Translations under genes and position numbers: made by a program
Part shown: positions 9,761 to 43,428 of the stretch, piece by piece
Layout: each line of letters starts with the position of its first letter
Numbering within the stretch: the first letter of the stretch is position 1
The notes under the pieces: model-generated
The model's input: the letters and a program-made list of their open reading frames with translations, nothing else
Told to the model about the DNA's origin: nothing
The model's database searches: none
Origin: an uncultured Lachnospiraceae bacterium
GTDB taxonomy: Bacteria; Bacillota; Clostridia; Lachnospirales; Lachnospiraceae
Direction of reading: 5' to 3'
Length of the DNA: 46,459 nucleotides
Assembly: GCA_900316625.1 (NCBI GenBank)
Contig: ONDO01000011.1
Span: 1-46,459, forward strand

Positions 9761-11173
9761 TTATTCTTCCGTCTTGTGATCGGGACCGGTCATGCTTTCG
9801 GATTCCGTCTTGTGATCGGGATCGGTTATGTTTTCGGATTCCGTCTTGTGATCGGGATCGGTCATGCTTTCGGATTCCGTCTTGTCTTCGAATTCCATGG
9901 GATTATCGAATTCGACTGCTTTGTGGAAGTTGATCTGAACCTTCTCGATACGCTGATGTCCGACAGAATCGACGCGGAAGGAGACACCGTCCTTATTGAC
10001 GAAGGTTTCGCCGCGGTTGGGAACATGATCAAACTGTCCGATCAGGTAACCGCCCAGACTGTCATAGTCATCAGACTCTAACTCGAGGGGCAGCATATCA
10101 TTCAGGTCATCGAGATTAATGGTGGCGCGTACCAGATACTTACCACTTGCCTTATCTAATTCCACGATGTCATCTTCTTCATCGACATCGTATTCATCAC
10201 GAATCTCACCAACCAGTTCTTCTAAGAGGTCTTCCAGGGTTACGATACCGGTAACAGAACCGTATTCATCCTGAACGATGGCCATGGCGATGGATTTCCT
10301 GCGCATCTCTGCAAAGAGTTCGGACAGGTTCTTCTGCTCATAGGTAAAGTAGGGCTCGCGGAGAAAATCGCGGATACAGAAGCTCTCACGGTTCTTGGGC
10401 AGGAGCAGGTCTTTCATATTAATGATACCGATCAGGTTATCGGGCTCGGTATCGTAGACCGGCATACGGGTCAACATCTCTTTCTCGAAAACTTTGATCA
10501 GCTGATCATAGGTCCAGTTGACATCGACCATAGTGACATCGATTCTGGGAATCATGACTTCACGCGCTGTGGAGTCGGAGAAATCAAAGAGGTTATGGAT
10601 GTACTGCTGTTCATTCTCTTCGATAACACCGCTTTCTGAGGATTCGTCGACGATGGTGCGGAGCTCTTCTTCGGTCATTCCCACATCGGAAGATTTGTCA
10701 CCACCGGTGATGTGGAGGAAGAATCGGGAGATGTGATTGATAAGGAAGATGAGGGGGGTCAGGATCCACATGAGAGCGGAGATGATGCTTGCTCTCTGCA
10801 GGCTGATCTTGGCCGCGTTCTTCTGGGCTCTGTTCTTGGGGGTAATCTCACCGAAGACCAGGATCAGGAAGGTGAGGATACCGGTGGCAATGCCGGCACC
10901 CATGCTGCCGAAGATCCTGACGGCCAGCGTAGTGGCGAGAGAGGATGCGGAGAGGTTGACGATGTTGTTACCAATCAGGATGGCAGAGAGCATCTTCTCC
11001 CTATTCTCTGTGACGGCAAGAACCTTCCGGGCCCTCTTATTACCATTGTCGGCCAGGGTTTTCATTCTGGTGTGGCTGACGGTGGTCAGGGCAGTCTCTG
11101 TAGAAGAGAAGAAGGCTGACAGAATCAGCAGGATGAAAAGTATGGCACATTGAAGAATGTCTTCCATATACAT
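9761..11173 (-). CDS. CNNM/CorC-family membrane protein (hemolysin C family)
   Basis: 470 residues. The N-terminal CNNM transmembrane domain (about 1-190) has several hydrophobic segments and the SAFFSSTETALT motif; a CBS pair (about 200-330) includes VMIPRIDVTMVD and VQDEYGSVTGIVTLEDLLEELVGEI; the CorC/HlyC C-terminal domain is at about 345-425. Family members are implicated in magnesium and cobalt export; the hemolysin name is historical. It transcribes towards the 71-aa gene. The last 45 residues are an unusual acidic tail made of 12-residue repeats (TESESMTDPDHK type) encoded by a 36-bp DNA repeat right at the stop codon. Confidence 0.92.
   Translation of the reverse strand: MYMEDILQCAILFILLILSAFFSSTETALTTVSHTRMKTLADNGNKRARKVLAVTENREKMLSAILIGNNIVNLSASSLATTLAVRIFGSMGAGIATGILTFLILVFGEITPKNRAQKNAAKISLQRASIISALMWILTPLIFLINHISRFFLHITGGDKSSDVGMTEEELRTIVDESSESGVIEENEQQYIHNLFDFSDSTAREVMIPRIDVTMVDVNWTYDQLIKVFEKEMLTRMPVYDTEPDNLIGIINMKDLLLPKNRESFCIRDFLREPYFTYEQKNLSELFAEMRRKSIAMAIVQDEYGSVTGIVTLEDLLEELVGEIRDEYDVDEEDDIVELDKASGKYLVRATINLDDLNDMLPLELESDDYDSLGGYLIGQFDHVPNRGETFVNKDGVSFRVDSVGHQRIEKVQINFHKAVEFDNPMEFEDKTESESMTDPDHKTESENITDPDHKTESESMTGPDHKTEE
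9769..9888. repeat. 36-bp in-frame tandem repeat at 3' end of CNNM gene
   Basis: Copies start at 9769, 9805 and 9841, with a partial fourth at 9877. Copy 2 differs from copy 1 at three positions, all C to T on the plus strand. Because 36 is a multiple of three, the repeat encodes a 12-residue module and copy-number change would alter only the length of the acidic tail. Confidence 0.95.
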
Positions 11174-11252
11174 GAACTCTTTCTAGCTTATTATTATCTT
11201 AAGTAAGTATTATAGAGGAAGCGACATTTCTCTGCAATGAGAGGTCTTCCTA

Positions 11253-11261
11253 TGCTATAAT
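11253..11261 (+). promoter_or_regulatory. Extended -10 promoter of the TPR gene
   Basis: TGCTATAAT: consensus TATAAT at 11256-11261 with a TGn extension, 51 bp before the start codon. The -35 region is poor, as is common with extended -10 promoters. The minus-strand CNNM gene diverges from here. Confidence 0.65.
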
Positions 11262-11311
11262 ATCGTAGACTACGCGAAGTATGGTCAAAAAAGAAATGAT
11301 AGAAAGTCACC

Positions 11312-12283
11312 ATGATGAGAGACGGTTTACATTTACGAAGAAAAATAGTTTCGTTGCTGGCTGGAATCGGCCTGGCTACGATGCTGGTGTCCTGTGGTTA
11401 TTCCGAAGAGGAAGAAGCGATGAAGCAGAAGGGCGTGGATTCCCTGGGGGCAGGAGACTACGCAGGGGCGGTGACATCCTTCAATTCAGCATTGTCCATG
11501 TCGAATGGTAGGGTTCGTGCAGAAGAGATCGATATCTGCTATTACAAGGCGGCAGCACAGTATCTGGCGGGAGAAGAGCAGGAGGCGCTCAATACATATA
11601 CAGCACTGCTCAGATTCGATGAGAAGAATGTGGATGCCTACTATCTGCGCGGCATGCTCTATGCCAAGATGGGCAATGCAGAAAAGGCGAAGGCGGACTT
11701 CGACAAGGCGATGAAGCTGGATCCGAAAGATTATGAGCGTTACTTACGTATCTACCGCAACCTCGCGAGCTTGAATATGGGCGAGATGGCAGATCAGTAT
11801 CTGGACAAGCTCCTGCAGACGGATTCTACCAGCAAGGAAGCGTATTCTGCCAAGGGTATGGCCTTGGAGATTCGTGGCGATTATGATTCGGCTGCCGAGA
11901 ATTACGAGAAGGCACTGAAGAAGGGGGATACCTCAGCTTATATCGATCTGGCTCGCATCCAGGGACTGAAGGGGGAGATGGATGCAGCAGCGTCCTACCT
12001 CAAGTCCTACCAGAAGGAAGTAAAGCCGAATTCTCTGTCCTACAATGCGGTTGGACAGTTAGAACTCTCCCAGGGCAAATATGCGGATGCGCTGGAGTCC
12101 TTCCAGAAGGGCCTTGCCTTAGAGAAGGTCACCAATCGCCAGGAACTGAGACGGAATGAGATCATCGCACTCGAATACACCGGCGATTTCGCACAGGCCA
12201 AGGAGAAAGCGGCATCTTACGTTTGTGACTATCCGGCGGATCAGGAGATGTTAAATGAGAATGTCTTCCTGTCGACCAGGTAG
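11312..12283 (+). CDS. TPR-repeat lipoprotein
   Basis: 323 residues. The N-terminus has basic residues, a hydrophobic segment and a lipobox LVSC (Cys near residue 28), so it should be lipid-anchored on the outer face of the membrane. The rest is a run of tetratricopeptide repeats (KQKGVDSLGAGDYAGAV, YYLRGMLYAKMGNAEKAKADF, AYSAKGMALEIRGDYDSAAENY, SYNAVGQLELSQGKYADAL), which normally mediate protein-protein contact. The partner is unknown. Two adjacent ATGs (11312, 11315) could be the start. The stop codon lies inside a 37-bp tandem repeat. Confidence 0.85.
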   Translation: MMRDGLHLRRKIVSLLAGIGLATMLVSCGYSEEEEAMKQKGVDSLGAGDYAGAVTSFNSALSMSNGRVRAEEIDICYYKAAAQYLAGEEQEALNTYTALLRFDEKNVDAYYLRGMLYAKMGNAEKAKADFDKAMKLDPKDYERYLRIYRNLASLNMGEMADQYLDKLLQTDSTSKEAYSAKGMALEIRGDYDSAAENYEKALKKGDTSAYIDLARIQGLKGEMDAAASYLKSYQKEVKPNSLSYNAVGQLELSQGKYADALESFQKGLALEKVTNRQELRRNEIIALEYTGDFAQAKEKAASYVCDYPADQEMLNENVFLSTR

Positions 12284-12416
12284 GAGGGCAGATGAGCAGG
12301 TTATCCTGTCGACCAGGTAAGAAGACAGATGAGCAGGTTATCCTGTCGACCAGGTAGGAGGACAGATGAGCAGGTTATCCTGTCGACCAGGTAGGAAGAC
12401 AGATGAGCAAGTAGGA
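12269..12416. repeat. 37-bp tandem repeat spanning the TPR gene stop codon
   Basis: Four copies start at 12269, 12306, 12343 and 12380. The unit begins CTGTCGACCAGGTAGGAGG and includes the last codons (LSTR), the TAG/TAA stop, a GGAGG-like ribosome site and ATGAGC. Copies differ only by G/A changes. The last copy runs into the pyrC ribosome site, so pyrC may start behind a duplicated termination-initiation junction. Confidence 0.95.
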
Positions 12417-12423
12417 GAAAAAG

Positions 12424-13710
12424 ATGAGAATCAGAATAACAAATGGCCGTCTCTTAAATCCTGCCGATGGAAGGGATGAGGTTACGAATCTTCTGATCGA
12501 AGATGACAAGATCGCCGCGATTGGACAGGATGCCGATCAGGGCAAGGCTGATCGCGAGATTAACGCAGAGGGATGTTATGTGATGCCAGGCCTTATCGAC
12601 CTGCATGTGCATCTCCGCGATCCGGGGCTTACGGAGAAGGCAGATATCGAATCCGAGTCCAGAGCTGCAGCCAGAGGCGGATTCACTACAATCTGCGCAA
12701 TGCCGAATACCAAGCCGGTCGCTGACAATATGGAAGTGATCCGCTATGTCGAGGATAAGGCAAAGGAAGTTGGCCTTGTCAATGTCGTCCAGGCAGGCTG
12801 CCTCACGAAAGGCATGGAAGGCAAGGAACTCTCTGATATCGCAGGTATGCTCCGGGGCGGTGTCCGGGTCTTCTCGGAAGACGGTAAGAGTGTTATGAAT
12901 TCCAAGCTCTTCCGTGATGCCATGCGCCTGATTCAGAAGGAAGATGGCGTAATCCTGGATCACTGCGAAGATATCAATCTGGTTGAGGGTGGCGTGATGA
13001 ACGATGGTGAAGCCTCCAGACGCCTGGGTTTCCGCGGTATCGCAAATGATGTTGAGAATATCATTGAGGCCCGTGATATCATGATCGCAGAAGAACTTGG
13101 TGCCAGACTTCACCTCTGTCACTGCTCCACCAAGGAGTCGGTAAGTTTCGTGAAGGATGCCAAGAAGAGAGGCATCCAGGTGACCGCAGAGGTTTGCCCG
13201 CATCACTTTGCCATGTCTGAAGAAGACATTCCCGGGGATGATGCGAACTATAAGATGAATCCTCCTCTTCGTAAGAGAGAGGATATGGAAGCTCTTCGTG
13301 CAGGACTTGCCGATGGCAGCATGGAAGTGATCTCCACGGATCACGCACCTCATACGGCAGAGGAGAAGTCGAGAGGCTTCGAGAAGGCGCCCTTCGGTAT
13401 CGTTGGACTCGAGACATCCGTCCAGCTAAGCTACACAGAACTTGTAAAGACCGGTCTCATCACGCCACTTTCACTGGCATCGAAGATGAGCTACCTGCCC
13501 GCACAGATCTTAAAGAACGGCAAGGGAGACCTCTCTGTCGGCAAGATTGCTGACCTTGTGATCTTCGATCCGAGACCGGAAGTCGAACTCCATGCGAGTG
13601 ACCTCGTCGGCAAGGCGAAGAACATGCCCTACGAGGGAAGGAAGGTCTTCGGAAATGTAGTGCTTACCATGCTTTCCGGTAAGATCACCTACTCTTCCCA
13701 ATCCATATAA
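12424..13710 (+). CDS. pyrC: Dihydroorotase
   Basis: Class I dihydroorotase, third step of de novo pyrimidine synthesis: carbamoyl aspartate to dihydroorotate. 428 residues, typical. The zinc motif DLHVHLRDPG lies near residues 58-67, followed by RGGFTTICAMPNTKP, the conserved DHCED, CHCS and STDHAPHT (catalytic Asp) segments. The ATG follows TAGGAGAAAAAG. It opens a cluster of pyr genes but pyrB, carA and carB are not in the window. Confidence 0.97.
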   Translation: MRIRITNGRLLNPADGRDEVTNLLIEDDKIAAIGQDADQGKADREINAEGCYVMPGLIDLHVHLRDPGLTEKADIESESRAAARGGFTTICAMPNTKPVADNMEVIRYVEDKAKEVGLVNVVQAGCLTKGMEGKELSDIAGMLRGGVRVFSEDGKSVMNSKLFRDAMRLIQKEDGVILDHCEDINLVEGGVMNDGEASRRLGFRGIANDVENIIEARDIMIAEELGARLHLCHCSTKESVSFVKDAKKRGIQVTAEVCPHHFAMSEEDIPGDDANYKMNPPLRKREDMEALRAGLADGSMEVISTDHAPHTAEEKSRGFEKAPFGIVGLETSVQLSYTELVKTGLITPLSLASKMSYLPAQILKNGKGDLSVGKIADLVIFDPRPEVELHASDLVGKAKNMPYEGRKVFGNVVLTMLSGKITYSSQSI

Positions 13711-13714
13711 AGTA

Positions 13715-13723
13715 TGCTAGAAT
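13715..13723 (+). promoter_or_regulatory. Extended -10 promoter candidate for pyrF
   Basis: TGCTAGAAT with TAGAAT at 13718-13723, between pyrC and pyrF, of the same TATGCT-type as the TPR gene promoter. The -35 (TTCCCA) is weak. Confidence 0.45.
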
Positions 13724-13762
13724 ACAGCGAATTTGTGAGATAGAAAAAAGTGAGGTTCGAAT

Positions 13763-14698
13763 ATGATTCATCAGCTTGCGCAGGAAATCAAAAAGAAGAA
13801 TGCACCGATTGTTGTCGGACTGGATCCGAAACTTTCCTTTATCCCGGAAGTACTTCTTCAGAAGTCTTATACCGCTTACGGTGAGACCCTGGAAGGAGCT
13901 GCAGATGCAATTTTCCGTTTCAACCGTGCCATTATGGATGCTGTAGCTGATCTGGTTCCGGCTGTGAAGCCCCAGATTGCCATGTACGAACAGTTCGGTA
14001 TCCCCGGACTGATGGCTTTCAAGAAGACGGTTGATTATGCACATTCTAAGGGCCTTCTTGTCATCGGCGATGTTAAGCGTGGTGATATCGGATCTACATC
14101 CGAATCCTATGCAATTGCTCATCTAGGTAAGATCAAGGTCGGCTCTCAGGAATTCGAACCCTTTGCAGAAGATTTTGCTACCGTTAACCCCTATCTGGGA
14201 ACCGATGGTGTAAAGCCTTTCGTTGATGTATGTAAGGAGAATGGTAAGGGTATCTTCGTACTGGTTAAGACCTCGAACCCTTCTTCCGGCGAGCTTCAGG
14301 ATCGCCTGGTAGATGGCAAGCCTCTCTACGAGCATGTTGCAGACAAGGTGAACGACTGGGGCCGCGATTGTATGGATGGCGATTACTCTGAGGTTGGTGC
14401 AGTGATCGGCGCTACCTATCCCCAGATCGGCCGTCAGCTGAGAGAAGATATGCCTAAGGCCTTCATCCTGGTACCTGGCTATGGTGCGCAGGGTGGTACC
14501 GGGAAGGACCTCGTTCCTTTCTTCAATGCAGATGGTCTCGGTGCGATCGTTAACTCTTCCCGTGGTATCATTGCAGCTTACCAGAAGGAAGAATATAAGA
14601 ACTTTGGAGCAGAGAATTTCGCTGATGCCAGCCGTCAGGCAGTTCTTGATATGCAGGCAGATATTCAGTCTGCATTAGACCACGCTCTGAACGAATGA
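13763..14698 (+). CDS. pyrF: Orotidine 5'-phosphate decarboxylase (long type)
   Basis: Makes UMP from OMP. At 311 residues it belongs to the longer type 2 PyrF group. The catalytic loop DVKRGDIGSTSESYA contains the Lys/Asp pair; PIVVGLDPKLSF is the N-terminal substrate loop and FILVPGYGAQGGT the phosphate-binding segment. It sits 52 bp after pyrC with its own possible promoter. Confidence 0.97.
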   Translation: MIHQLAQEIKKKNAPIVVGLDPKLSFIPEVLLQKSYTAYGETLEGAADAIFRFNRAIMDAVADLVPAVKPQIAMYEQFGIPGLMAFKKTVDYAHSKGLLVIGDVKRGDIGSTSESYAIAHLGKIKVGSQEFEPFAEDFATVNPYLGTDGVKPFVDVCKENGKGIFVLVKTSNPSSGELQDRLVDGKPLYEHVADKVNDWGRDCMDGDYSEVGAVIGATYPQIGRQLREDMPKAFILVPGYGAQGGTGKDLVPFFNADGLGAIVNSSRGIIAAYQKEEYKNFGAENFADASRQAVLDMQADIQSALDHALNE

Positions 14699-14705
14699 AC
14701 ATAGA

Positions 14706-14735
14706 AGTTCCGGATGCATAGCGTCCGGAACTTTA
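14706..14735 (+). terminator. Weak terminator or attenuator after pyrF
   Basis: AGTTCCGGA and TCCGGAACT form a 9-bp stem followed only by TTAT. It may be leaky, allowing read-through into pyrK. Confidence 0.5.
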
Positions 14736-14815
14736 TCTGAATGGAAGTAAGGCTGATTGGCCAGGAGAAGTAAGTGGAATGGAACAGTGTGTTCCAGGGA
14801 AAGAGGAGGACTTAG

Positions 14816-15625
14816 ATGACAGAATCAGGCAAGGTTCGGGAGACAGCGCGTATTATCCGCCAGGATCCGATTGCTGATGGTGTATTCTCTATGTGGATTC
14901 GTACAGAAGGCGCCCAGTATGCGGTTCCGGGGCAGTTTGTATCACTCTATACACCGGATAAGCGCAAGATTCTTCCTCGCCCCATCTCCATCGCTGAGGT
15001 CAACCGTGGTGCGAATGCTCTCAGACTGGTCTATCGTGTCATGGGAGCCGGAACAGAAGAGTTCTCCCATCTGCATTCTGACCAGATGTTAGAGATCTTG
15101 GCTCCCCTCGGAAATGGCTATCCGATGCAGGGCGGAAGATGCCTCCTGATCGGAGGCGGTATCGGAATTCCTCCCCTTCTCGAACTTGCCAAGGAATTGT
15201 CTGGAGAGAATCGTATCGATGGTGTCTCTCGTCCTGCACTCTCCGTTACTGCAGTGCTGGGATATCGTAATGATCAGCTCTTCCTTAAGAAGGATTTCGA
15301 GAATTATGCAGATGTCATTATTGCAACAGATGATGGCTCTGTGGGAACGCATGGAACTGTAATGGATGCGATAAAGGAGCATGAGGTCTCTGCTGATGTC
15401 ATCTATGCCTGCGGACCGACCCCCATGCTTCGTGGTGTGAAGCAGTTCGCTCAGGCTCAGCAGATCCGCTGCTTCCTCTCTCTGGAAGAGAGAATGGCTT
15501 GTGGCGTCGGCGCCTGCCTGGGATGTGTTGTGAAGACCACTGGGATCGATGATCATTCTAAGGTCCATAACAAGCGTGTCTGTGCAGATGGACCTGTATT
15601 CTTAGCTGAGGAGGTAGTTCTGTAA
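14816..15625 (+). CDS. pyrK: Dihydroorotate dehydrogenase electron transfer subunit
   Basis: FAD and [2Fe-2S] subunit that passes electrons from the PyrD flavin to NAD+. 269 residues. The FAD-binding motif LPRPISIAEV, the GGGIGIPPL nucleotide loop and the C-terminal 2Fe-2S cysteines (ERMACGVGACLGCVVKT...C) are all present. GAGGAGG precedes the ATG. The stop TAA shares its last A with the pyrD start (TAATG), so both subunits are coupled in translation as expected for a heterotetramer. Confidence 0.97.
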   Translation: MTESGKVRETARIIRQDPIADGVFSMWIRTEGAQYAVPGQFVSLYTPDKRKILPRPISIAEVNRGANALRLVYRVMGAGTEEFSHLHSDQMLEILAPLGNGYPMQGGRCLLIGGGIGIPPLLELAKELSGENRIDGVSRPALSVTAVLGYRNDQLFLKKDFENYADVIIATDDGSVGTHGTVMDAIKEHEVSADVIYACGPTPMLRGVKQFAQAQQIRCFLSLEERMACGVGACLGCVVKTTGIDDHSKVHNKRVCADGPVFLAEEVVL

Positions 15626-16569
15626 TGAGTACGAGACAGAGAGAGTATGATGCTTCTTCACTGAAGACGGCAGTGACGCTTGCAGGTGTTACCCTGAAGA
15701 ATCCGATCATGACAGCATCCGGAACCTTCGGCTCCGGTATGGAATACAGTGAATTCGTAGATCTCTCCCGTCTGGGAGCAGTTGTTACCAAGGGCGTTGC
15801 AGATCATCCCTGGCCCGGTAATCCTACACCCCGTGTTGCTGAAGTGACGGGCGGAATGCTCAATGCCATCGGCCTGCAGAATCCTGGAATTGAGACCTTC
15901 TGCGAGAGAGACCTCCCCTTCTTAAGACAGTATGACACCAAGGTTATCGTGAATGTCTGCGGTCATGCCGAAGAGGAGTACCTGAATGTCGTAGATCGTC
16001 TGGCAGAAGAGAAGGGCGTTGACCTCTTAGAGATCAATATCTCCTGCCCTAATGTAAAAGAAGGCGGAATCTCCTTTGGAACAGATCCCAAGGGAGTAGA
16101 ACATATCACAAAAGTAATCAAAGAACATGCAAAACAGCCTGTGATCATGAAGTTAAGTCCTAATGTAACTTCCATTGCGGAGATTGCAAAAGCGGCAGAA
16201 GCAGGCGGTGCTGACCTGGTATCCCTGATCAATACCATCACTGGGATGAAGATTGACACCAGAAGACGCAAGTTCGTCCTCGCCAACAAGACCGGTGGAA
16301 TGTCCGGCCCTGCGGTACATCCCGTCGCTGTCCGCATGGTCTACGAAGTCGCTCAGGCAGTCAAGATTCCCATTATCGGAATGGGTGGTGTTGAGACCGC
16401 AAATGATGCCCTCGAGATGATCCTCGCCGGTGCAAGCGCAGTATCCGTCGGAACCGCAAACTTTGGTAACCCGACAGCAACCCTTGACATCATTGAGGGA
16501 ATCGAACGCTTCATGATCGAAGAAGGTGTATCCGATATCCACGAACTGATTGGGGCTGTACACGAGTAA
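15625..16569 (+). CDS. pyrD: Dihydroorotate dehydrogenase B, catalytic subunit
   Basis: FMN enzyme oxidising dihydroorotate to orotate; class 1B, NAD-dependent, needing PyrK. 314 residues. The N-terminal KNPIMTASGTFG, the NVCG segment, the ISCPNVKEGG motif with the catalytic Cys, PVIMKLSPN, LINTITGMKID and the C-terminal IGMGGVETANDALEMILAGASAVSVG phosphate-binding region are intact. Overlaps pyrK by one base. Confidence 0.97.
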   Translation: MSTRQREYDASSLKTAVTLAGVTLKNPIMTASGTFGSGMEYSEFVDLSRLGAVVTKGVADHPWPGNPTPRVAEVTGGMLNAIGLQNPGIETFCERDLPFLRQYDTKVIVNVCGHAEEEYLNVVDRLAEEKGVDLLEINISCPNVKEGGISFGTDPKGVEHITKVIKEHAKQPVIMKLSPNVTSIAEIAKAAEAGGADLVSLINTITGMKIDTRRRKFVLANKTGGMSGPAVHPVAVRMVYEVAQAVKIPIIGMGGVETANDALEMILAGASAVSVGTANFGNPTATLDIIEGIERFMIEEGVSDIHELIGAVHE

Positions 16570-16627
16570 GTGATACGCAGCCCAGCAGGGGCTGTATTTC
16601 ACACGCAATAATAGATTGGAGAACAAG

Positions 16628-17302: not shown

Positions 17303-17313
17303 CAGGGAGTGAT

Positions 17314-17634: not shown

Positions 17635-17658
17635 CAATAAGCACTATTGGAGTTATAC

Positions 17659-23666: not shown

Positions 23667-24715
23667 TGAAGAAGGCTTATATCCTCCTATCTATCCTGAT
23701 CGTGCTCTTAGTAGCAGCACAAACAGTGATTTTCATCCTCTTTCCGAATCTGCATCAGTTTGCCCAAAACAGGGCGGGTGATGATTCAAACCGGATGTCA
23801 GTCATGAACATGGTACATGATCAGTCAGAACTGAATAAGATGAATACCTCCCTTGGACAGCTCCGTTTCGAGATCCCTACCGGAACCCCGGCTTCTGATA
23901 TCAAGGTAGTGACATCCCCGATTGACCGGGAGATCTCTCTCTACCTGAATAATGTGGAAGCAAGTTACTTCGAAGATCATCCGGTGGTAGGTTCGACAGA
24001 GCATATCAGCGATATGTATTTTGATTACGGTTCGGGTGAGGCAAGTATTGATTTCGCTATGGATGGCGTCTACGAGCCGGTAACAAAGGTAGATGATCAC
24101 TATATCTATCTCAGCTTCCTGAATCCCAGGGAAGTCTATGACTACATCGTTGTGATTGATGCTGCGTGCGGCGGAGATGATGATGGATACAGTGCAGGTG
24201 ACGTGCACGAGAAAGATGTTACTCTGGACGTAGTACAGCGGATGAAGCGGATTCTGGATCAGCAGGGAAGGCAGAATGTCGGAATCTATTACACCCGACT
24301 CTCGGATCGTAAGATATATCTCAAGGAGAGAGCGGAGCTTGCGGAAGAACTTGGAGCAGATCTCTTCCTGTCTGTACGGCTGAATTCGACAGCGACCGGA
24401 AGAGAGTCGGACATCAGTGGTGTCTCTGTCCTCTATCAGGTTGCTGATACCAGTGGCAGATCCTATAAATTCGCTTCCATCTGTCTGGATCATCTCTTAG
24501 ATGGCCTGGGTGCATCCTCGAGAGGGGTTCTCCCCGGTGATGAAGATTATATCGTCCGTACCGCAGATATGCCGATTGCAGTCGCAGGCTTAGGTTATGT
24601 AACAAACGCGGCAGAACGTGAGAGAATGGGACAGGAGGAGTATAGAGAAGAGGCAGCTTCTGCTCTCTGTGCGTCCATACAAGAAGCCCTGGACTCTGAT
24701 CTGACGAAGAAATAG
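23666..24715 (+). CDS. Amidase_3-fold protein, probably catalytically dead
   Basis: 349 residues: an N-terminal membrane anchor, a beta-rich region with an AMIN-like look (about 65-150) and a C-terminal N-acetylmuramoyl-L-alanine amidase type 3 domain (from about residue 160). The usual zinc motif DPGHGG reads DAACGG (His replaced by C168). The Glu ligand in HEKD (E182) remains. The second His motif SIHAN reads SVRLN (R238), and the catalytic Glu of ELGFLSN reads GLGYVTN (G308). With two zinc ligands and the catalytic Glu lost, hydrolysis is unlikely; a peptidoglycan-binding or regulatory role is more probable. The stop codon lies in a 31-bp repeat array. Confidence 0.88.
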   Translation: MKKAYILLSILIVLLVAAQTVIFILFPNLHQFAQNRAGDDSNRMSVMNMVHDQSELNKMNTSLGQLRFEIPTGTPASDIKVVTSPIDREISLYLNNVEASYFEDHPVVGSTEHISDMYFDYGSGEASIDFAMDGVYEPVTKVDDHYIYLSFLNPREVYDYIVVIDAACGGDDDGYSAGDVHEKDVTLDVVQRMKRILDQQGRQNVGIYYTRLSDRKIYLKERAELAEELGADLFLSVRLNSTATGRESDISGVSVLYQVADTSGRSYKFASICLDHLLDGLGASSRGVLPGDEDYIVRTADMPIAVAGLGYVTNAAERERMGQEEYREEAASALCASIQEALDSDLTKK

Positions 24716-24899
24716 GCTGGATGTCTCAGATCTTAAGCAGAAACAGGCTGGATGTCTTGGATCTTAAGCAGAAATAGGCTGGATGCCCCAGATCTTAAGC
24801 AGAAACAGGCTGGATGTATCAGATCTTAAGCAGAAATAGGCTGGATGTCTCAGGTCTTAAGCAGAAACAGGCTGGATGTCTCGGATCTTAAGCAGCAAT
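24714..24899. repeat. 31-bp tandem repeat spanning the pseudo-amidase stop codon
   Basis: Six copies start at 24714, 24745, 24776, 24807, 24838 and 24869 (unit AGGCTGGATGTCTCAGATC, continuing TTAAGCAGAAA). The first unit contains the TAG stop. The unit resembles the preceding coding tail (LDSDLTKK-stop versus LDVSDLKQK-stop). Copies 1, 3 and 5 end in C while 2 and 4 end in T, suggesting duplication of 62-bp dimers. Nothing else is seen in the rest of this 250-bp gap. Confidence 0.96.
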
Positions 24900-24965
24900 A
24901 AGGAAGACTATTTGTAATAGAATTGCAATAAAAAGCGACGTAAAGCGATAAGAAAGTGGATAAGA

Positions 24966-34895: not shown

Positions 34896-34950
34896 GATGA
34901 TTTGTTCAGTGACGCATAATTTTATGTGGCACTTGAATGAGGGGAGAAAA

Positions 34951-36052: not shown

Positions 36053-36124
36053 TCGGCCATGAAGACAGGGAGAAATCTGCACTGAGAGGTGTGAATCCGG
36101 ATGACGGGACGATGGGAGAATGGG

Positions 36125-36637
36125 ATGACAGAAGACAAGTATCGGAAAATTACAGAATGCATCTCTGGAATCAAGCACGGCCCTAGGATGGTACGTCTCT
36201 TAGATCAGTTAGTGACCATGATCATCTTCCTGCTCTATCCGGTGCTTCTGGGAGAGCTCTATCTCCTGGATCGAAGTGACCTTCTCCTGCCTGTTCTGGT
36301 GGTGCCGGCGACCGGCTTCGTGGTGGTCAGCCTCATGCGCCATGTGATCCACAGTAAGAGACCTTATGAAGTCTACGACTTTACTCCCATCATACAGAAG
36401 GAGACCGTGGAACACAGTTTCCCCAGCCGCCATGTCTGCTCGGCGGTACTCATTGCCATGGCCTTTCTGCAGCTGGATGTCTCGAACGGGTTAGAGATCC
36501 TGCTTCTTGCAGCAATCCTGTCTGCCCTTCGGGTATTGGGAGGCGTTCATTTCCCTAAGGACGTGATCGCAGGATATCTGATGGGACTGGGATTCAGCCT
36601 GCTTGGTTACTATCTGGTGTTTAATATCTCGAGGTAA
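36125..36637 (+). CDS. PAP2-family membrane phosphatase
   Basis: 170 residues with several membrane segments. Motifs HSKRPYEVY (K..RP), HSFPSRHVCSAV (PSRH) and GGVHFPKDVIAG (motif 3 His/Asp) fit active type 2 phosphatidic acid phosphatases, which in bacteria act on phosphatidylglycerophosphate or undecaprenyl pyrophosphate. ATG 36125 is preceded by GGGAG at good distance; an ATG at 36101 is an alternative with a poor ribosome site. Confidence 0.9.
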   Translation: MTEDKYRKITECISGIKHGPRMVRLLDQLVTMIIFLLYPVLLGELYLLDRSDLLLPVLVVPATGFVVVSLMRHVIHSKRPYEVYDFTPIIQKETVEHSFPSRHVCSAVLIAMAFLQLDVSNGLEILLLAAILSALRVLGGVHFPKDVIAGYLMGLGFSLLGYYLVFNISR

Positions 36638-36639
36638 GA

Positions 36640-36906
36640 ATGGAAGAGAAGAAAGTAAGACTCTGGCGTCATGCCATTATTATATTACTGGACCTCCTGG
36701 GCACACTTCTGGCCCTCTATGTCGGCGGTGTCCTGATGTTTGCGCTTCCCTTATATCATATGGTGACGGATCTGAAAGCGAATACGCTGACCAGCGGGCA
36801 GCTGATCAGAAGCGTGATCAGTATCCTGCTTGCATCAACGTCTGCCGGTGGGATCTGGTGCATCTTCGACATCTTAGCCAGCCTCTTTCGCGTAAAGGAG
36901 GACTGA
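36640..36906 (+). CDS. Small two-helix membrane protein, unknown
   Basis: 88 residues: a basic N-terminus and two clear membrane segments (about 11-40 and 58-80). It starts 2 bp after the PAP2 stop and ends 2 bp before the acylphosphatase start, so it is part of a tight operon. No family recognised. Confidence 0.75.
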   Translation: MEEKKVRLWRHAIIILLDLLGTLLALYVGGVLMFALPLYHMVTDLKANTLTSGQLIRSVISILLASTSAGGIWCIFDILASLFRVKED

Positions 36907-36908
36907 GG

Positions 36909-37196
36909 ATGGAGAAGATCAGGAGAAGATACCGGGTCTTTGGCGATGTACAGGCAGTGGGCTTCCGTTATACAGCCCGCATGGTGGCAGGGCGATATGA
37001 CCTCACAGGCTATGTGCAGAACGAATACGATGGTTCCGTAACAGCGGAAGTGCAGGGAGACCCGGATGCGGTGCACAGCTTTCTTGCGAATGTGGAAGCA
37101 GCCTCTCACTGGATCAGAATCGATCCTTATCTCACCAGTGAGAAGGATCTGCCGATCGATGATGAGGAGCGATCCTTTGAGATTCGGGGATATTAG
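36909..37196 (+). CDS. acyP: Acylphosphatase
   Basis: Hydrolyses acyl phosphates such as 1,3-bisphosphoglycerate. 95 residues, typical. The signature GDVQAVGFRYTAR holds the catalytic Arg, and GYVQNEYDGSVTAEVQG the catalytic Asn. ATG 36909 follows GTAAAGGAGG; a much longer open frame upstream in the same frame is a shadow of the PAP2 and membrane genes. Confidence 0.96.
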   Translation: MEKIRRRYRVFGDVQAVGFRYTARMVAGRYDLTGYVQNEYDGSVTAEVQGDPDAVHSFLANVEAASHWIRIDPYLTSEKDLPIDDEERSFEIRGY

Positions 37197-37213
37197 ATGG
37201 GTGATATAGATAC

Positions 37214-38215
37214 ATGTATCTGGAAGATATAATTCAGGAAGAACAGAATGGATGGACAGTGAAGCGGTACCTGGGTGAATGGCGCCGCTTTTCTTCGCAT
37301 ATGGTAAGAAGGCTCAAGTTCCGCGAGAACGGCATCCTCCTAAATGACGCCAAGGTGACCGTGCGGGCCGTCCTCCATAAGGGAGACTGTCTTCGCATGC
37401 GTCTTAGCGACGTCGAGACGGATGATGAGAGTTCTCATTCCGTCTGGTGGCTTCCGCCCAAGGACATGCCGAAACTTGTGATCCTGAAGGAGGATCCTCA
37501 TCTGATCTTCCTCGATAAGCCGGCGGGCCTGGTCTGTCACCCCTCCCACGGGCATTATGCCGATACGGTGGCGAATCAGGTGGCAGAGCATCTCGGCATC
37601 CGCCGCGGTGGTATCTATCCCATCGGCAGGCTGGACCGGGACACATCCGGAGTGGTCTGCTTCGCCAAGCACGAGGATGCCGCCGGTCAGATGACTCTCC
37701 TCCAGAAATGTGGAGCTTACCATAAGACATATCTTACGGAAGTGGAGGGGTGTCTCGAAGGCTGCGGAGAGATCACAGATTCGATTGGCATCTTGAAGAA
37801 GACGCCGCTACGTATGGGACTTCTCGCTGTAGATCAGGGTGGAAGACCGGCAGAGACCTACTGGAAGGTGCGAGGCTACAGGAGAGATGACAGAGGAGAG
37901 ATCTGCTCTACATTTCTCGAAGTGACCATTTCGCATGGAAGGACACATCAGATTCGGGTGCACATGGCCAGCATCGGGCATCCGATCGTTGGAGATCCTA
38001 TCTATGGTAAGGATGGGGACTTTCGATATGAGACGGGGCGGGATGCCTATGATGGGACCCGGCATGTGGAGGATGTCTTCGCGGGGTATATCGATCCTGC
38101 GGGGGTGGATATGCATCTGCATGCCTATCGTGCGACTTACCTGGAACCCTTCTATCCAGGAGTACCGGAGGAGTCCTGCGTGGAGACGAAATATCCTTCC
38201 TGGTGGTGTAGATAA
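37214..38215 (+). CDS. RluA-family pseudouridine synthase
   Basis: 333 residues: an N-terminal S4-like RNA-binding segment (about 15-75) and the RluA catalytic domain with GRLDRDTSGVVCFAK (catalytic Asp), IFLDKPAGLVCHPS and TGRTHQIR-like GRTHQIRVHMASIGHPIVGD. Target is 23S rRNA or tRNA uridine; which one cannot be told. Confidence 0.94.
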   Translation: MYLEDIIQEEQNGWTVKRYLGEWRRFSSHMVRRLKFRENGILLNDAKVTVRAVLHKGDCLRMRLSDVETDDESSHSVWWLPPKDMPKLVILKEDPHLIFLDKPAGLVCHPSHGHYADTVANQVAEHLGIRRGGIYPIGRLDRDTSGVVCFAKHEDAAGQMTLLQKCGAYHKTYLTEVEGCLEGCGEITDSIGILKKTPLRMGLLAVDQGGRPAETYWKVRGYRRDDRGEICSTFLEVTISHGRTHQIRVHMASIGHPIVGDPIYGKDGDFRYETGRDAYDGTRHVEDVFAGYIDPAGVDMHLHAYRATYLEPFYPGVPEESCVETKYPSWWCR

Positions 38216-38300
38216 TATAATGACTAATATTCGAAGAGGCATAGGAAGGATATGCGTGTTATAATGAAGGCCAATGTGAATGTCTGTTAGGGAGTATTGA

Positions 38301-39182
38301 ATGAAACTTCTGGAAGAGAATCAGTCCTATACCTATACTTGCGTGGGTCATCCGGCTTCGACGGATGGAGAGGGAAGGCATTACTGTCGTGCTGTCCGGG
38401 CCTTTCTTCAGGATGGCTATGCCCTCTGCAATGACTGTCCGCTCTATGGTGGTGAGTCATCGACGCTGGGAGACAGCGTTCCCATGTGTTATTACTATGA
38501 CTTGGATCTGTCGGATGCAGAGGAGATCAGCGGTGTGGAGCAGAATCTTCGTACCGAGTCCCTGATCAATGCAGGCATGATCCCTAAGTTCCCCTTCTAT
38601 CTTACGGAACTTGAGGCGGTAAGAAGATTTGGTATCATGGAGCAGGCAATCCAGTTTGCTGCTGATGCACATGCCGGCCAGACGAGAAAGGGCTCAGAAC
38701 TTCCTTACATCTGTCATCCGCTCGAGGTGATGATGCTTGTCTGCAAGATGACATCTGACCCGGAGGTGGCAGCGGCAGCGGCTCTGCATGATACGATCGA
38801 AGACACCAAGACGGAGTACGAGGATCTGAAGGAGTGCTTCGGTAAGCGCATTGCAGATCTGGTGGCGGCAGAGTCTGAAGATAAGAAGCGTGATCGCCCG
38901 GCCGGGGAGACCTGGAGGGAGCGCAAAGAGGAGAATCTTCTGCGCATCGCAGACGAGCCCTATGAAGCAAAGCTCATTATGCTTGCGGATAAGCTGTCGA
39001 ACCTTCGCTCGAGTTACCGGGAGTACCAGAAGATCGGTGATCAGATCTTCGAGCGCTTCAATATGAAGGACAAGAAGGAACATGAGTGGTATCACAGAAG
39101 TGTGGCAGAAGCCCTGTCAGAGCTCCGTGAACTCTCACAATACGGTGAATACAAGCATCTCATCGAGGAGATCTTCGGATGA
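38301..39182 (+). CDS. HD-domain (p)ppGpp hydrolase-like protein with Cys-rich N-terminus
   Basis: 293 residues. The C-terminal domain (about 110-275) matches SpoT/MESH1-type hydrolases: AGQTRKGSELPYICHPLEV, ALHDTIEDT (HD pair) and MLADKLSNLRS, with no synthetase domain. The first 65 residues hold five cysteines (C14, C29, C43, C46, C63) in a zinc-finger-like arrangement, not part of the standard family. A small alarmone hydrolase or another nucleotide phosphohydrolase is likely. The GAGTATTG leader offers a moderate ribosome site. The stop codon lies in a 16-bp tandem duplication. Confidence 0.85.
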   Translation: MKLLEENQSYTYTCVGHPASTDGEGRHYCRAVRAFLQDGYALCNDCPLYGGESSTLGDSVPMCYYYDLDLSDAEEISGVEQNLRTESLINAGMIPKFPFYLTELEAVRRFGIMEQAIQFAADAHAGQTRKGSELPYICHPLEVMMLVCKMTSDPEVAAAAALHDTIEDTKTEYEDLKECFGKRIADLVAAESEDKKRDRPAGETWRERKEENLLRIADEPYEAKLIMLADKLSNLRSSYREYQKIGDQIFERFNMKDKKEHEWYHRSVAEALSELRELSQYGEYKHLIEEIFG

Positions 39183-39204
39183 TGAGATCTTCGGATGATG
39201 AGAT
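39168..39204. repeat. 16-bp tandem duplication spanning the stop codon
   Basis: GAGATCTTCGGATGAT occurs at 39168 and again at 39184 with GAGAT starting a third at 39200. The unit contains the last codons EIFG and the TGA stop of the hydrolase gene. Confidence 0.95.
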
Positions 39205-39332
39205 GCTGGTAGAGATATAGAACGTATCTTGGAATGTGTATAATATGATACGCACAATAGTAAGCAATGTGTGGTGCTGTATCGTATGATATGGAATGCT
39301 ATGCATGGGCTATGCAAAGAAAGGAAAAAGAA

Positions 39333-39851
39333 ATGGGAAAAGCATTAGTTGGTATTGTTATGGGCAGCGATTCTGATATGCCGGTCATGGCAGAGGCTGC
39401 TAAGATCTTAGATCAGTTTGGTATCTCTTATGAGATGGATGTTATCTCTGCTCATCGTGAGCCGGACGAATTCTTCGAATACGCACATGGCGCAGAAGAG
39501 CGCGGCTATAAAGTGATCATCGCAGGTGCAGGCAAGGCAGCACATCTTCCCGGAATGTGTGCAGCACTCTTCTCCATGCCTGTTATCGGTATCCCCATGA
39601 AGACTTCGGATCTGGGTGGTGTAGATTCTCTCTATTCTATCGTACAGATGCCCAGCGGCATTCCTGTTGCTACCGTTGCCATCAATGGTGGTAAGAATGC
39701 CGGAATCCTGGCAGCGAAGATTCTTGCTACGGGAGATGCAGAACTTCTTGCGAAGGTTAAGAAGTATTCAGAAGACCTGAATGAAGAAGTGAAAGAGAAG
39801 AACAAGAAGCTGAAGGAAATCGGCTGGAAGAAGTATCTCGAAGAGAAGTAA
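39333..39851 (+). CDS. purE: N5-carboxyaminoimidazole ribonucleotide mutase
   Basis: Converts N5-CAIR to CAIR in purine synthesis (class I PurE, which needs PurK; purK is not in the window). 172 residues. Motifs GIVMGSDSDMPVM and ISAHREPDEF are diagnostic, with GAGKAAHLPGM. ATG 39333 follows AAAGGAAAAAG. The C-terminus KKYLEEK and the stop are tandemly duplicated downstream. Confidence 0.96.
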   Translation: MGKALVGIVMGSDSDMPVMAEAAKILDQFGISYEMDVISAHREPDEFFEYAHGAEERGYKVIIAGAGKAAHLPGMCAALFSMPVIGIPMKTSDLGGVDSLYSIVQMPSGIPVATVAINGGKNAGILAAKILATGDAELLAKVKKYSEDLNEEVKEKNKKLKEIGWKKYLEEK

Positions 39852-39982
39852 TGCGGTCGCAAGGAGCATCTCGAAGAGAAGTAATGCGGTCGCAAGAAGC
39901 ATCCCGAAGAGAAGTAATACGGTCGCAAGAAGTATCTCGAAGAGAAGTAATACGGTCGCAAGGAGCATCCCGAAGAAGTTTA
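39837..39982. repeat. 33-bp tandem repeat spanning the purE stop codon
   Basis: Copies start at 39837, 39870, 39903, 39936, with a partial copy at 39969. The unit contains the last purE codons (LEEK) and TAA. Because 33 is divisible by three, every copy ends in the same frame as purE: KEHLEEK-stop, KKHPEEK-stop, KKYLEEK-stop. Variable positions are all A/G or C/T. Confidence 0.96.
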
Positions 39983-40021
39983 CTACAGCATGAAGTGACA
40001 TCAGGAAGTGAAAGACTTTGA
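39851..40021 (+). CDS. Possible 56-residue repeat peptide coupled to purE
   Basis: The purE stop overlaps an ATG (TAATG), opening a 56-codon frame through the repeats that would give an 11-residue repeat peptide (MRSQGASREV, MRSQEASREV, IRSQEVSREV, IRSQGASRRS). There is no separate ribosome site apart from GAAGAGAAG, and a 33-bp repeat easily creates open frames by chance. Listed as a possibility only. Confidence 0.2.
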   Translation: MRSQGASRREVMRSQEASRREVIRSQEVSRREVIRSQGASRRSLLQHEVTSGSERL

Positions 40022-40059
40022 TATAAGTGGCATTAATAAATACACCAAGTATTTATAAA

Positions 40060-40089
40060 TTGTCTTTCTAAAACTGACAGACGTATAAT
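40060..40089 (+). promoter_or_regulatory. Promoter of the purM operon
   Basis: TTGTCT, an 18-bp spacer and perfect TATAAT (40084-40089), 86 bp before purM. The leader contains a TGAAGCC/GGCTTCA hairpin (40101-40117). Confidence 0.7.
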
Positions 40090-40175
40090 ACATATGCGAA
40101 TGAAGCCTCTGGCTTCAGCTGCCGGAAAAAGAAAAAGATTTGGTAATGAAGGCTTGGTAAGACCAGGAGGTCCAT

Positions 40176-41201
40176 ATGGATTACAAGAGCGCAGGTGTTG
40201 ATATCGTAGCTGGTTATGAATCTGTTGAACTGATGAAGAAGTTCGTCAAGGGAACCATGCGTCCCGAAGTTCTCGGTGGTTTGGGTGGATTCTCCGGTGC
40301 CTTCAGTCTTGCACAGATCAAGGAGATGGAAGAACCTGTTCTTCTGTCTGGTACGGATGGTGTAGGAACGAAGATTAAGCTTGCTTTCCTTCTTGATAAG
40401 CATGATACCGTTGGTATCGACTGTGTTGCAATGTGTGTAAACGACGTTGCATGTGCAGGTGGTGAGCCTCTGTTCTTCCTGGATTATATTGCCTGTGGTA
40501 AGAACTTCCCTGAGAAGATTGCGACCATCGTCTCTGGTGTTGCAGAGGGTTGTAAGCAGTCCGGATGCGCTCTGATCGGTGGTGAGACTGCTGAACATCC
40601 TGGCCTTATGCCGGAAGAAGAGTATGACCTTGCTGGTTTTGCAGTTGGTCTTGCTGATAAGAAGGACATCATTACCGGACAGGAGATCCGAGAAGGCGAT
40701 GTTCTGATCGGTCTTGCTTCCACAGGAATTCATTCCAATGGATTCTCTCTTGTAAGAAAAGTATTCCCGATGACCCTTGAGGCTCTGAACACGCATTATG
40801 ATGAACTCGGTAAGACTCTGGGCGAGGCTCTGATTGTTCCTACCAGAATCTATGTGAAGGCTATGAAGTCCATTAAGGATGCCGGCGTAAGAGTGCATGG
40901 TTGCAGCCATATCACCGGTGGTGGCTTCTACGAGAATGTTCCTCGTATGCTTCCGGATGATAAGCTTGCAGTGATTGAAAAAGATAGTTACGAGGTTCCT
41001 CCCATCTTCAAACTCCTCCAGAAGACGGGCGGTATCGATGAAGAGATGATGTACAACACTTATAATATGGGCCTTGGTATGGTTCTTGCAGTTGCTCCGG
41101 AAGATGTTGATAAGACACTTGCAGCAGCAAAGAAAGCAGGAGATACCGCTTATGTCGTCGGTCATATCGAAGGCGACAGGAAGGGTGTTAAGCTCGTCTA
41201 A
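40176..41201 (+). CDS. purM: Phosphoribosylformylglycinamidine cyclo-ligase
   Basis: AIR synthetase, fifth step of purine synthesis. 341 residues. Characteristic YKSAGVDIVAGYESVELM, LLSGTDGVGTKIKLAF (ATP/metal loop), MCVNDVACAGGEPLFFLDYIACG and GGETAEHPGLM. GACCAGGAGG precedes the ATG. purN and purD follow in the same direction. Confidence 0.97.
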   Translation: MDYKSAGVDIVAGYESVELMKKFVKGTMRPEVLGGLGGFSGAFSLAQIKEMEEPVLLSGTDGVGTKIKLAFLLDKHDTVGIDCVAMCVNDVACAGGEPLFFLDYIACGKNFPEKIATIVSGVAEGCKQSGCALIGGETAEHPGLMPEEEYDLAGFAVGLADKKDIITGQEIREGDVLIGLASTGIHSNGFSLVRKVFPMTLEALNTHYDELGKTLGEALIVPTRIYVKAMKSIKDAGVRVHGCSHITGGGFYENVPRMLPDDKLAVIEKDSYEVPPIFKLLQKTGGIDEEMMYNTYNMGLGMVLAVAPEDVDKTLAAAKKAGDTAYVVGHIEGDRKGVKLV

Positions 41202-41218
41202 TTGATTGCTTTTGTTCA

Positions 41219-41246
41219 GGCCGGTGCGTAATGTTCCGGTCTGTTC
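41219..41246 (+). terminator. Possible terminator or attenuator after purM
   Basis: CAGGCCGG and CCGGTCTG form an 8-bp stem (one G-T), followed by TTCTTGTC. Weak T-tract; read-through into purN is likely. Confidence 0.45.
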
Positions 41247-41318
41247 TTGTCTAAGGGATAGAGCAGACGGATGGCCTTGCTCTATATTTACGAAGATGTA
41301 TGTGAAGGGTAAACAGAT

Positions 41319-41945
41319 ATGAAAAATGTGACAGTTCTGGTATCCGGTGGTGGAACCAATCTCGAGGCGATTCTCAAGGCTTGCGAGGATGGCAGTATCA
41401 GCCACGCCAAGGTAACCCATGTCATCTCGAATAATCCGGGTGCTTATGCGCTTAAGAGAGCGAAGAATCATGGAGTAGAGGGTGAGGTCTTATCCCCTAA
41501 GTCCTTCGAGAGCAGAGCAGCCTTTAATGAGGCTTTCCTTCAGAGGCTGGAGGAGATCAATCCGGATCTAATCGTTCTGGCGGGCTTCCTGGTCGTGATT
41601 CCGGAAGCTGTTGTACGTGCTTTCCCACATAAGATCATTAACATCCATCCCTCCCTGATTCCGTCCTTCTGTGGAAAGGGATTCTATGGACTGAAGGTTC
41701 ACGAGGGGGTTCTCTCCCGTGGAGTTAAGGTGACGGGAGCTACCGTCCACTTCGTAGATGAGGGAACGGATACCGGCCCTATCCTTCTTCAGAAGGCAGT
41801 CTATGTCGAGGAGGGTGATACGCCGGAGGTTCTGCAGCGTAGAGTCATGGAAGAGGCGGAGTGGAAGATTCTGCCCCAGGCAATCGAGCTTTTGGCTGCA
41901 GATCGTGTTCGTGTTGATGAGAATCATGTGACGCACATCCGGTAA
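41319..41945 (+). CDS. purN: Phosphoribosylglycinamide formyltransferase
   Basis: Formyl-THF-dependent GAR transformylase. 208 residues. NVTVLVSGGGTNLEAIL is the GAR-binding loop; LAGFLVVIPEAVVRAFPHKIINIHPSLIPSF holds the catalytic Asn and His, and VHFVDEGTDTGPIL the Asp. The last codons and stop are repeated once in diverged form downstream. Confidence 0.97.
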   Translation: MKNVTVLVSGGGTNLEAILKACEDGSISHAKVTHVISNNPGAYALKRAKNHGVEGEVLSPKSFESRAAFNEAFLQRLEEINPDLIVLAGFLVVIPEAVVRAFPHKIINIHPSLIPSFCGKGFYGLKVHEGVLSRGVKVTGATVHFVDEGTDTGPILLQKAVYVEEGDTPEVLQRRVMEEAEWKILPQAIELLAADRVRVDENHVTHIR

Positions 41946-41983
41946 GTGTGATGACGATCATGTGGCTTACGTCCGGTAAGCGT
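41916..41983. repeat. Diverged 34-bp duplication of the purN tail and stop
   Basis: Two copies, at 41916 and 41950, identical at 27 of 34 positions. The first encodes DENHVTHIR-stop, the second would read DDDHVAYVR-stop. Five of the seven differences are transitions. Confidence 0.85.
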
Positions 41984-42055
41984 ACATTAGAAGAATGCGT
42001 TTTTGTTTCGAAATGTGAATCGTTCATTATGTTTTAGAAAACGAGAGGTTGTCTT

Positions 42056-43327
42056 ATGAAAATTCTTTTGGTTGGTGGTGGCGGCCGTGAGCACGCGATC
42101 CTTCATGCGATTGCTAAGAGTCCTCGTGTGGATAAGATCTATGTAGCACCTGGCAATGCAGGTATGGCTGACATGGCAGAGCTTGTGAATATCGGTGTGA
42201 TGGAGTTCGACAAGCTGGTGGCTTTCGCCAGGGAGCATGAGATTGACCTTACGGTCTGCTCTCAGGACGATCCTCTCTGCGCCGGTATCGTGGATGCCTT
42301 CGAAGAGGCTGGTCTTCGCATCTTCGGAACCAGAAAGAATGCTGCTATCATTGAGGGCTCTAAGGCTTTCTCTAAGGACCTGATGAAGAAGTACAATATA
42401 CCAACAGCTGCTTATGAGACCTTCGATGATCCTGCGAAGGCAGAAGAGTATCTGAAGAGCCAGAAGATGCCAATCGTACTGAAGGCGGATGGCCTTGCAC
42501 TCGGTAAGGGGGTTCTGATCTGCCAGACTCTCGAGGAAGCAATCGAGGGTGTTAAGGAGATCATGGAAGACAAGAAGTTCGGCTCTGCAGGAAATGAACT
42601 TGTTATCGAGGAATTCATGACAGGTCGTGAAGTGTCTTGCCTTGCTTTCGTAGATGGTACGAACTACGCTCTTATGACTTCATCTCAGGACCACAAGAGA
42701 GCAGGAGATGGTGATACCGGTCTTAATACCGGCGGTATGGGAACCTTCTCTCCCAGCCCCTTCTTCACTGAGGATATTCAGAAGATCTGCGATGAGAAGA
42801 TCTTCCGGCCTACCGTGGATGCCATGAAGAAGGAAGGCAGAGAATTCAAGGGTGTTCTATATTTCGGACTGATGCTGACGGCAGATGGCCCCAAGGTTGT
42901 GGAGTATAATACCCGCTTCGGTGACCCTGAGACCCAGGTCGTTCTTCCTCGTATGAAGACCGATATCATCGATGTCTTCGAGGCTTGCATCGATGGAAAA
43001 CTCGATGAGATCAAGTTAGAGTTCGAGGACAATGCAGCAGTCTGTGTTGTATTAGCTTCCAAAGGATATCCGGTATCCTATGAGAAGGGCTTCCCCATCG
43101 AAGGCTTCGATAAGTTCGACAACCGGAAGTATTACTGCTTCCATGCAGGAACCAAGTTCGATGCAGAGGGCAGAATCGTCACCAATGGTGGACGTGTACT
43201 CGGTATCACAGCCCTTGGCAGCAACCTGAAGGAAGCGAGAAGGAACGCTTACGAAGCAACCGAATGGATCAGCTTCAAGAATAAGTATATGCGTCACGAT
43301 ATCGGTAAGGCAATCGACGAGGCGTAA
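42056..43327 (+). CDS. purD: Phosphoribosylamine-glycine ligase
   Basis: GAR synthetase, second step of purine synthesis. 423 residues, ATP-grasp fold. KILLVGGGGREHAILHAIAKSP N-domain start, ATP-grasp KADGLALGKGV and the signature RFGDPETQVVLPRM are intact. ACGAGAGG precedes the ATG. The tail (GKAIDEA-stop) is copied about 95 bp downstream together with a fragment from another gene. Confidence 0.97.
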   Translation: MKILLVGGGGREHAILHAIAKSPRVDKIYVAPGNAGMADMAELVNIGVMEFDKLVAFAREHEIDLTVCSQDDPLCAGIVDAFEEAGLRIFGTRKNAAIIEGSKAFSKDLMKKYNIPTAAYETFDDPAKAEEYLKSQKMPIVLKADGLALGKGVLICQTLEEAIEGVKEIMEDKKFGSAGNELVIEEFMTGREVSCLAFVDGTNYALMTSSQDHKRAGDGDTGLNTGGMGTFSPSPFFTEDIQKICDEKIFRPTVDAMKKEGREFKGVLYFGLMLTADGPKVVEYNTRFGDPETQVVLPRMKTDIIDVFEACIDGKLDEIKLEFEDNAAVCVVLASKGYPVSYEKGFPIEGFDKFDNRKYYCFHAGTKFDAEGRIVTNGGRVLGITALGSNLKEARRNAYEATEWISFKNKYMRHDIGKAIDEA

Positions 43328-43428
43328 GGCGGTCGTTTAGGCGCAATCAGGCAATCGTCGTTGTGAAGATGCTTGTACCCGTGGTACCATCGACGAAGCA
43401 ATCGCAATCGACGAGGCATAAGGCGGTA
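43304..43428. repeat. Chimeric duplication of purD tail with a 59-bp oxidoreductase fragment
   Basis: The purD end CAATCGACGAGGCGTAAGGC recurs at about 43405-43424 as CAATCGACGAGGCATAAGGC. Between the two copies, 43356-43414 is a perfect copy of 2923-2981 of the oxidoreductase gene. The junctions lie in shared sequence: GCAATCGACGA occurs in both parents, and CG at the left end. Confidence 0.93.

Follow-up and report, generated by a model that had tools for sequence, protein, structure and literature searches.

Several unrelated genes at this locus end within short tandem repeats whose unit contains the stop codon, which raises the question of whether a process targets the 3' ends of genes, as claimed in the initial annotation, or whether ordinary tandem duplication suffices. 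The window, i.e., the whole stretch of DNA analysed, was an entire contig of 46,459 bp from a 1.93-Mb draft genome (52 contigs, 83.65% complete), and was evaluated within a sample of that genome (G000) comprising 978 kb including the window, approximately 51% of the genome. Gene ends were taken from a simple gene finder based on hexamer-scored open reading frames, not from a curated annotation. Arrays were counted across the genome with TRF at a score of at least 50 and a period of at least 10, dropping arrays with a period below 10, and a direct-repeat scan with +1/−2 scoring served as a second detection method. The scan returned 24 pairs in real sequence and 0 in block-shuffled copies (5 of 34 stretches, 317,644 bp), so its repeats were not chance matches. 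Two stretches without any G or C (L002 and L023) were treated as masked and excluded.

Across the whole window, the stop codon lay inside the unit in five TRF arrays, at the ends of the genes for the TPR lipoprotein, the Amidase_3 protein, the HD/SpoT-like protein, purE and purN, and in each of them it sat in the first unit (Table 1). The first four, which had already been described as gene ends inside stop-containing arrays, were recovered by TRF and by reading of the sequence; TRF likewise confirmed the diverged 34-bp copy reported at purN and the in-frame 36-bp array reported at CNNM, and the copied tail of purD was found by the direct-repeat scan. The gene names were backed by Pfam (AIRC, TPR, Amidase_3, HD_4, CNNM, formyl transferase, and GARS). 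The two purD copies lie apart from each other and fell below the TRF threshold, while the purN copies (unit identity 0.76) were found by TRF and missed by the direct-repeat scan, which re-found the other five arrays. The purE array begins within the conserved purE end, KKYLEEK-stop.

Table 1. Tandem repeats and associated genes in the window.
Feature	Position	Strand	Description and evidence
CNNM/CorC-like gene	9761-11173	minus	
CNNM/CorC-like array	9767-9885	minus	36-bp unit x 3.3, in frame, with its end immediately ahead of the CNNM stop; TRF, Pfam
TPR lipoprotein gene	11312-12283	+	last codons and TAG stop (12281-12283) in unit 1
TPR lipoprotein array	12267-12409	+	37 bp x 3.9; TRF, sequence
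Amidase_3 gene stop	24713-24715	+	TAG, in unit 1 of the 31-bp array
Amidase_3 array	24694-24900	+	31 bp x 6.5, also scored 62 bp x 3.3; TRF
HD/SpoT-like array	39168-39204	+	16 bp x 2.3, TGA stop 39180-39182; TRF, sequence
purE array	39828-39976	+	33 bp x 4.5, TAA stop 39849-39851; TRF
purN second copy	41915-41980	+	34 bp x 1.9, 81% matches, TAA stop 41943-41945; TRF, sequence
purD tail and copy	43309-43333 and 43403-43427	+	offset 94 bp, stop inside; direct-repeat scan, sequence

Full copies were mostly 81–97% alike (76% at purN), and TRF reported 100% matches only for the 16-bp array. Units of the amidase array alternated between T and C at one site, and its copies 2–7 had three changes in common that the in-gene copy 1 lacked; the purE units were mosaic in their variants. 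As read from the unit tables, these variants show later re-expansion and exchange. The 16-bp array carried a trailing partial unit of 5 bp (GAGAT), which would fit slippage between short direct repeats, as a single case and not as proof.

The origin of the units was addressed by comparison with eight congeners, one genome per species, which provided 52 orthologous gene ends (8 per gene, 4 for the amidase). No array crossed the stop at 51 of these 52 ends, the sole exception being the amidase end of G008, which carried a weak one (score 50); downstream of purD, arrays were present 36 bp away in G007 and 120 bp away in G002. Congener stops were mostly at the same alignment position as those of the window genes. 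PurE ended in KYLEEK-stop without an array in G001 and G005, PurD ended in GKAIDEA in G006, G002 and G004, and the purN and amidase ends varied by a few residues. The TPR proteins ended in FLSTR or FLETR in six of the eight congeners; one ended two residues later and one ran on (G005, whose frame continues past the usual end and therefore says little about the stop). At the TPR gene end, none of the eight congeners carried an array. More distant relatives of the TPR lipoprotein numbered 17 in named genomes, at 23–37% identity.

In a comparison of 182 units (126 from the G000 arrays, 55 from the congeners G002 and G004, plus the purD tail), the window units matched no other, except for purE and a unit at L036 33259 (20 bp, 90%). 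A common or dispersed unit family was rejected on these grounds, and the earlier statement that the units differ at every locus and do not form one family was upheld by both this comparison and the congener ends. Since nearly all congener ends lack arrays and the units, apart from the one purE match, resemble no other, each array is a recent duplicate of the gene end at which it lies, formed locally, most likely after these species parted.

The gene order around the arrays also differed. From the TPR lipoprotein to purE (12283-39267) the distance was 27 kb in the window and approximately 3–7 kb in the six congeners with both genes on one contig, and in G005 both the amidase gene and the HD/SpoT-like gene were located on another contig. 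A rearrangement or an insertion of approximately 20 kb between the TPR lipoprotein and purE is likely from this gene order.

Of the 126 TRF arrays in the genome sample, 64 lay inside genes and 45 in intergenic DNA, 14 fell on a stop codon and 2 on a start codon, and 1 was partial. Requiring genes of at least 90 or 120 aa left the stop and start counts unchanged and kept the nine stop-spanning arrays outside the window. Expected numbers came from a null in which the unit of every array was assigned a random position in sequence that was not entirely coding. With the window included, 14 of the 62 non-coding arrays spanned a stop vs. 7.4–9.5 expected (P 0.01–0.08). Outside the window the sample held 9 of 57 vs. 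6.5 expected for placement inside the stretch of origin and 8.7 for placement anywhere (P 0.2–0.5), i.e., no significant excess; the direct-repeat scan gave 8 of 55 there (count only).

Distance from the stop was resolved in three steps. With the window, 17 of 62 arrays lay at a stop (10.3 expected, P 0.02), 21 within 10 bp (12.9, P 0.01) and 29 within 50 bp (21.3, P 0.03); without it, the corresponding numbers were 12 of 57 (9.4, P 0.22), 16 (11.8, P 0.11) and 24 (19.4, P 0.13). By the measure proposed in the initial annotation, enrichment within 50 bp of stops, the excess was nominally significant with the window and not significant without it. Pooling G000 outside the window with the congeners G002 and G004 gave 19 of 96 arrays at a stop (15.4 expected, P 0.19), 26 within 10 bp (19.3, P 0.06) and 39 within 50 bp (31.7, P 0.07), a pool for which G002 and G004 were picked after a first look at some of their stretches had shown arrays, three of them stop-spanning, and in which those initial stretches were kept. 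All three stop-distance measures leaned the same way outside the window, which would be compatible with a weak 3' preference of approximately 1.2–1.35-fold, and the proposed process targeting gene 3' ends was not borne out by the stop-spanning counts outside the window.

The clear placement bias was the avoidance of start codons. In the same pool, 4 of 96 arrays touched a start vs. 15.7 expected (P 0.0002), 11 lay within 10 bp of one vs. 19.7 (P 0.015) and 27 within 50 bp vs. 33.4 (P 0.10), indicating that the avoidance fades with distance.

Taken alone, the window was an outlier. All five of its not fully coding TRF arrays spanned a stop, compared to 0.8–0.9 expected (P 1e-4 to 2e-4), it differed from the rest of the sample (Fisher 3e-4), and the purD pair found by the direct-repeat scan added a sixth stop-containing repeat. 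Because the window had been chosen for its pattern, and the genome amounts to approximately 42 stretches of that size, we regard the five of five as a post hoc cluster that mostly reflects selection of the example.

The period was divisible by 3 in 58 of 64 coding arrays vs. 27 of 62 non-coding arrays, among the latter in 8 of the 14 that spanned a stop. Stop-spanning arrays reached less than one TRF period into the gene in 13 of 14 cases (7–45 bp), as expected if the gene owns the first copy only; the exception (L036 33259) entered 16 bp with a period of 15.

We consider it very probable that the arrays are ordinary young minisatellites, generated by tandem duplication and filtered by selection, with gene ends not targeted. 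Short tandem duplications (unit lengths in the sample were 10–117 bp, mostly 15–75 bp) would arise fairly often in this genome regardless of gene ends, probably by replication slippage or template switching, and additional slippage or unequal exchange could then lengthen them. Duplications that break the frame, or that disturb the start codon and its upstream signals, would be purged by selection, and a unit containing the start could introduce spurious start codons or break up the ribosome site. A unit containing the stop would do no damage regardless of length, since the first copy preserves the gene and its stop, and additional copies would become 3' UTR. Owing to this filter, stop-straddling arrays would survive like intergenic ones and starts would look depleted, with no targeting involved. 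An in-frame array that loses or displaces the stop would become a novel protein tail, of which CNNM looks like an example. Within this model, three elements are inferred: that the arrays are neutral, that slippage generated them, and in which order the events took place.

A weak or regional mutational bias, by which duplications start near stops, for instance at sites of replication-transcription conflict or R-loops after genes, would account for the five of five in the window and for the nominal excess that appears once the window is included, and the consistent, non-significant 3' lean elsewhere (P 0.06 within 10 bp) points the same way. Outside the window, however, enrichment was not significant, and intergenic arrays in co-directional gaps were not shifted 3' (13 nearer the stop vs. 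16 nearer the start), and we hold this bias to be unlikely. Slippage at replication-transcription conflicts had been suggested earlier; of this, replication slippage is possible, but a tie to transcription is not needed. The other cause suggested then, reverse-transcribed mRNA ends, or any other copying machine that inserts gene ends in tandem, would agree with units that begin in genes and include the stop. It found no specific support: the majority of the 126 arrays were wholly in genes or between genes (64 and 45, respectively), and the shallow entry of 13 of the 14 stop-spanning arrays is what simple tandem duplication predicts, which makes such copying exceedingly improbable.

Functional 3' UTR elements under selection, acting in RNA stability, termination or regulation, would be compatible with the array of the TPR gene, which folded better than its shuffles (z −2.50), and with an intergenic array of 37-bp repeats in M. 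tuberculosis for which excerpts of PMC2734929 report a correlation with the next gene's expression. The six other folds were ordinary (z 0.73 to −1.04 vs. shuffles; the amidase array was folded at 24714-24860), terminators showed no excess in 38000-44000 (3 found vs. 4.1 in shuffles), and RNA structure and terminators were rejected as explanations on these two results. Together with the absence of a common unit sequence and of arrays at nearly all congener ends, this renders a functional role very unlikely. Assembly artefacts might be suspected in a draft of 52 contigs and 83.65% completeness in which array-rich stretches were often on short contigs. Collapsed or looped identical k-mers, though, would not produce full copies that differ as these do, and arrays of the same kind occurred in congeners; an artefact is highly improbable.

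Among known systems, the window arrays would by their sequence fit bacterial minisatellites or VNTRs, which consist of head-to-tail units of approximately 10–100 bp, intergenic or coding in frame; all six TRF arrays of the window had units of this arrangement and size. Copies in the window arrays were contiguous, with no spacers between them as in a CRISPR array. MIRUs lie at gene junctions with stop/start overlap and form one dispersed sequence family, whereas the window units are unrelated to each other. In unit length (40–100 bp in the excerpted text of PMC2734929) MIRUs are similar. The same excerpts describe the M. tuberculosis rnc-fpg1 VNTR, which resembles the arrays here in having 37-bp units between two genes. 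It starts 40 bp after the rnc stop, where related species outside the complex have a short gap, and it differs in that it extends to the next start codon instead of lying across a stop, and in its reported link to expression (PMC2734929).

The published precedent is the tandem repeats of Borgs (Schoelmerich et al., 2023; PMC9879509). In the available portions of that paper, Borg repeats likewise have a unit sequence unique to each locus, are recent and of local origin, occur both in genes and between them, have coding units divisible by three (all in the paper, 58 of 64 here) and add amino-acid repeats where coding (PMC9879509). Borg arrays are, however, described there as nearly perfect and A-rich, and Borgs as extrachromosomal elements of a methane-oxidising archaeon (PMC9879509), whereas the copies here are diverged and the window genes are bacterial-type chromosomal housekeeping genes, orthologues of which occur in eight congeners; for these reasons the window arrays are not members of the Borg set. 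Among the literature matches listed, judged by titles and the starts of abstracts, no bacterial study of stop-straddling arrays appeared, which is not proof that there is none; in the accessible part of PMC2884548 the term 'stop codon' was absent.

Arrays of a score of at least 80 that were not fully coding numbered 51 in the 978 kb of G000 and 15 in 287 kb of the eight congeners. Outside the genus, 20 genomes (15 sharing its family, 5 sharing its order) gave 5 such arrays in 400 kb, and a set of 17 named but unrelated loci gave 4 in 169 kb. Gene calling in small samples drew on the few stretches of each, so that their non-coding share may be inflated. The density was uneven within the genus, with zero arrays of a score of at least 80 in 58 kb of G001, and arrays were clustered, with a variance-to-mean ratio of 3.0 across 86 10-kb bins. 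Five stretches of short contigs (L106, L025, L105, L032 and L030) held approximately 43–78 arrays per 100 kb at a score of at least 80, coding arrays included, among housekeeping genes; four 40-kb stretches (L026, L028, L034 and L039) held none at that score. Loss of a repair gene was rejected as a cause of the many arrays, as MutS and SbcD, the two genes examined, were both present in the genome.

A separate intergenic tandem repeat of approximately 61–69 bp, with mutually related units, occurred at L106:7347-8003, L025:14578-14839 and L105:12217-12354, and another related set was found in G002 and G004 (L211, L111, L213, L203 and L116). The L025 unit had inverted ends, CCGCCCTAT...ATAGGGCGG.

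At CNNM, the match to congeners ended at residue 419–423 of the protein's own 470 in five of eight cases and at 432–439 in three, and these three carried other CNNM tails. As the match stops before the tail, approximately 40 of the last 47 residues were supplied by the array, and the tail may be a novel C-terminus that originated from a tandem array. The repeat of this tail (9767-9885) is acidic, ESMTDPDHKTES, and was absent from the eight congener C-termini read.

A genus-specific mutational process, in which tandem duplications were several-fold commoner than in neighbouring genera and favoured stops in some regions including the window, appears quite unlikely to us; if it operated, it would provide a steady supply of new 3' UTRs and, upon in-frame loss of the stop, new protein tails. 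Ordinary duplication filtered by selection offers a simple null model for testing claims of 'targeted' gene-end repeats, and the pattern shows selection shaping the survival of duplications, which are frame-preserving in genes, free across stops and avoided at starts.
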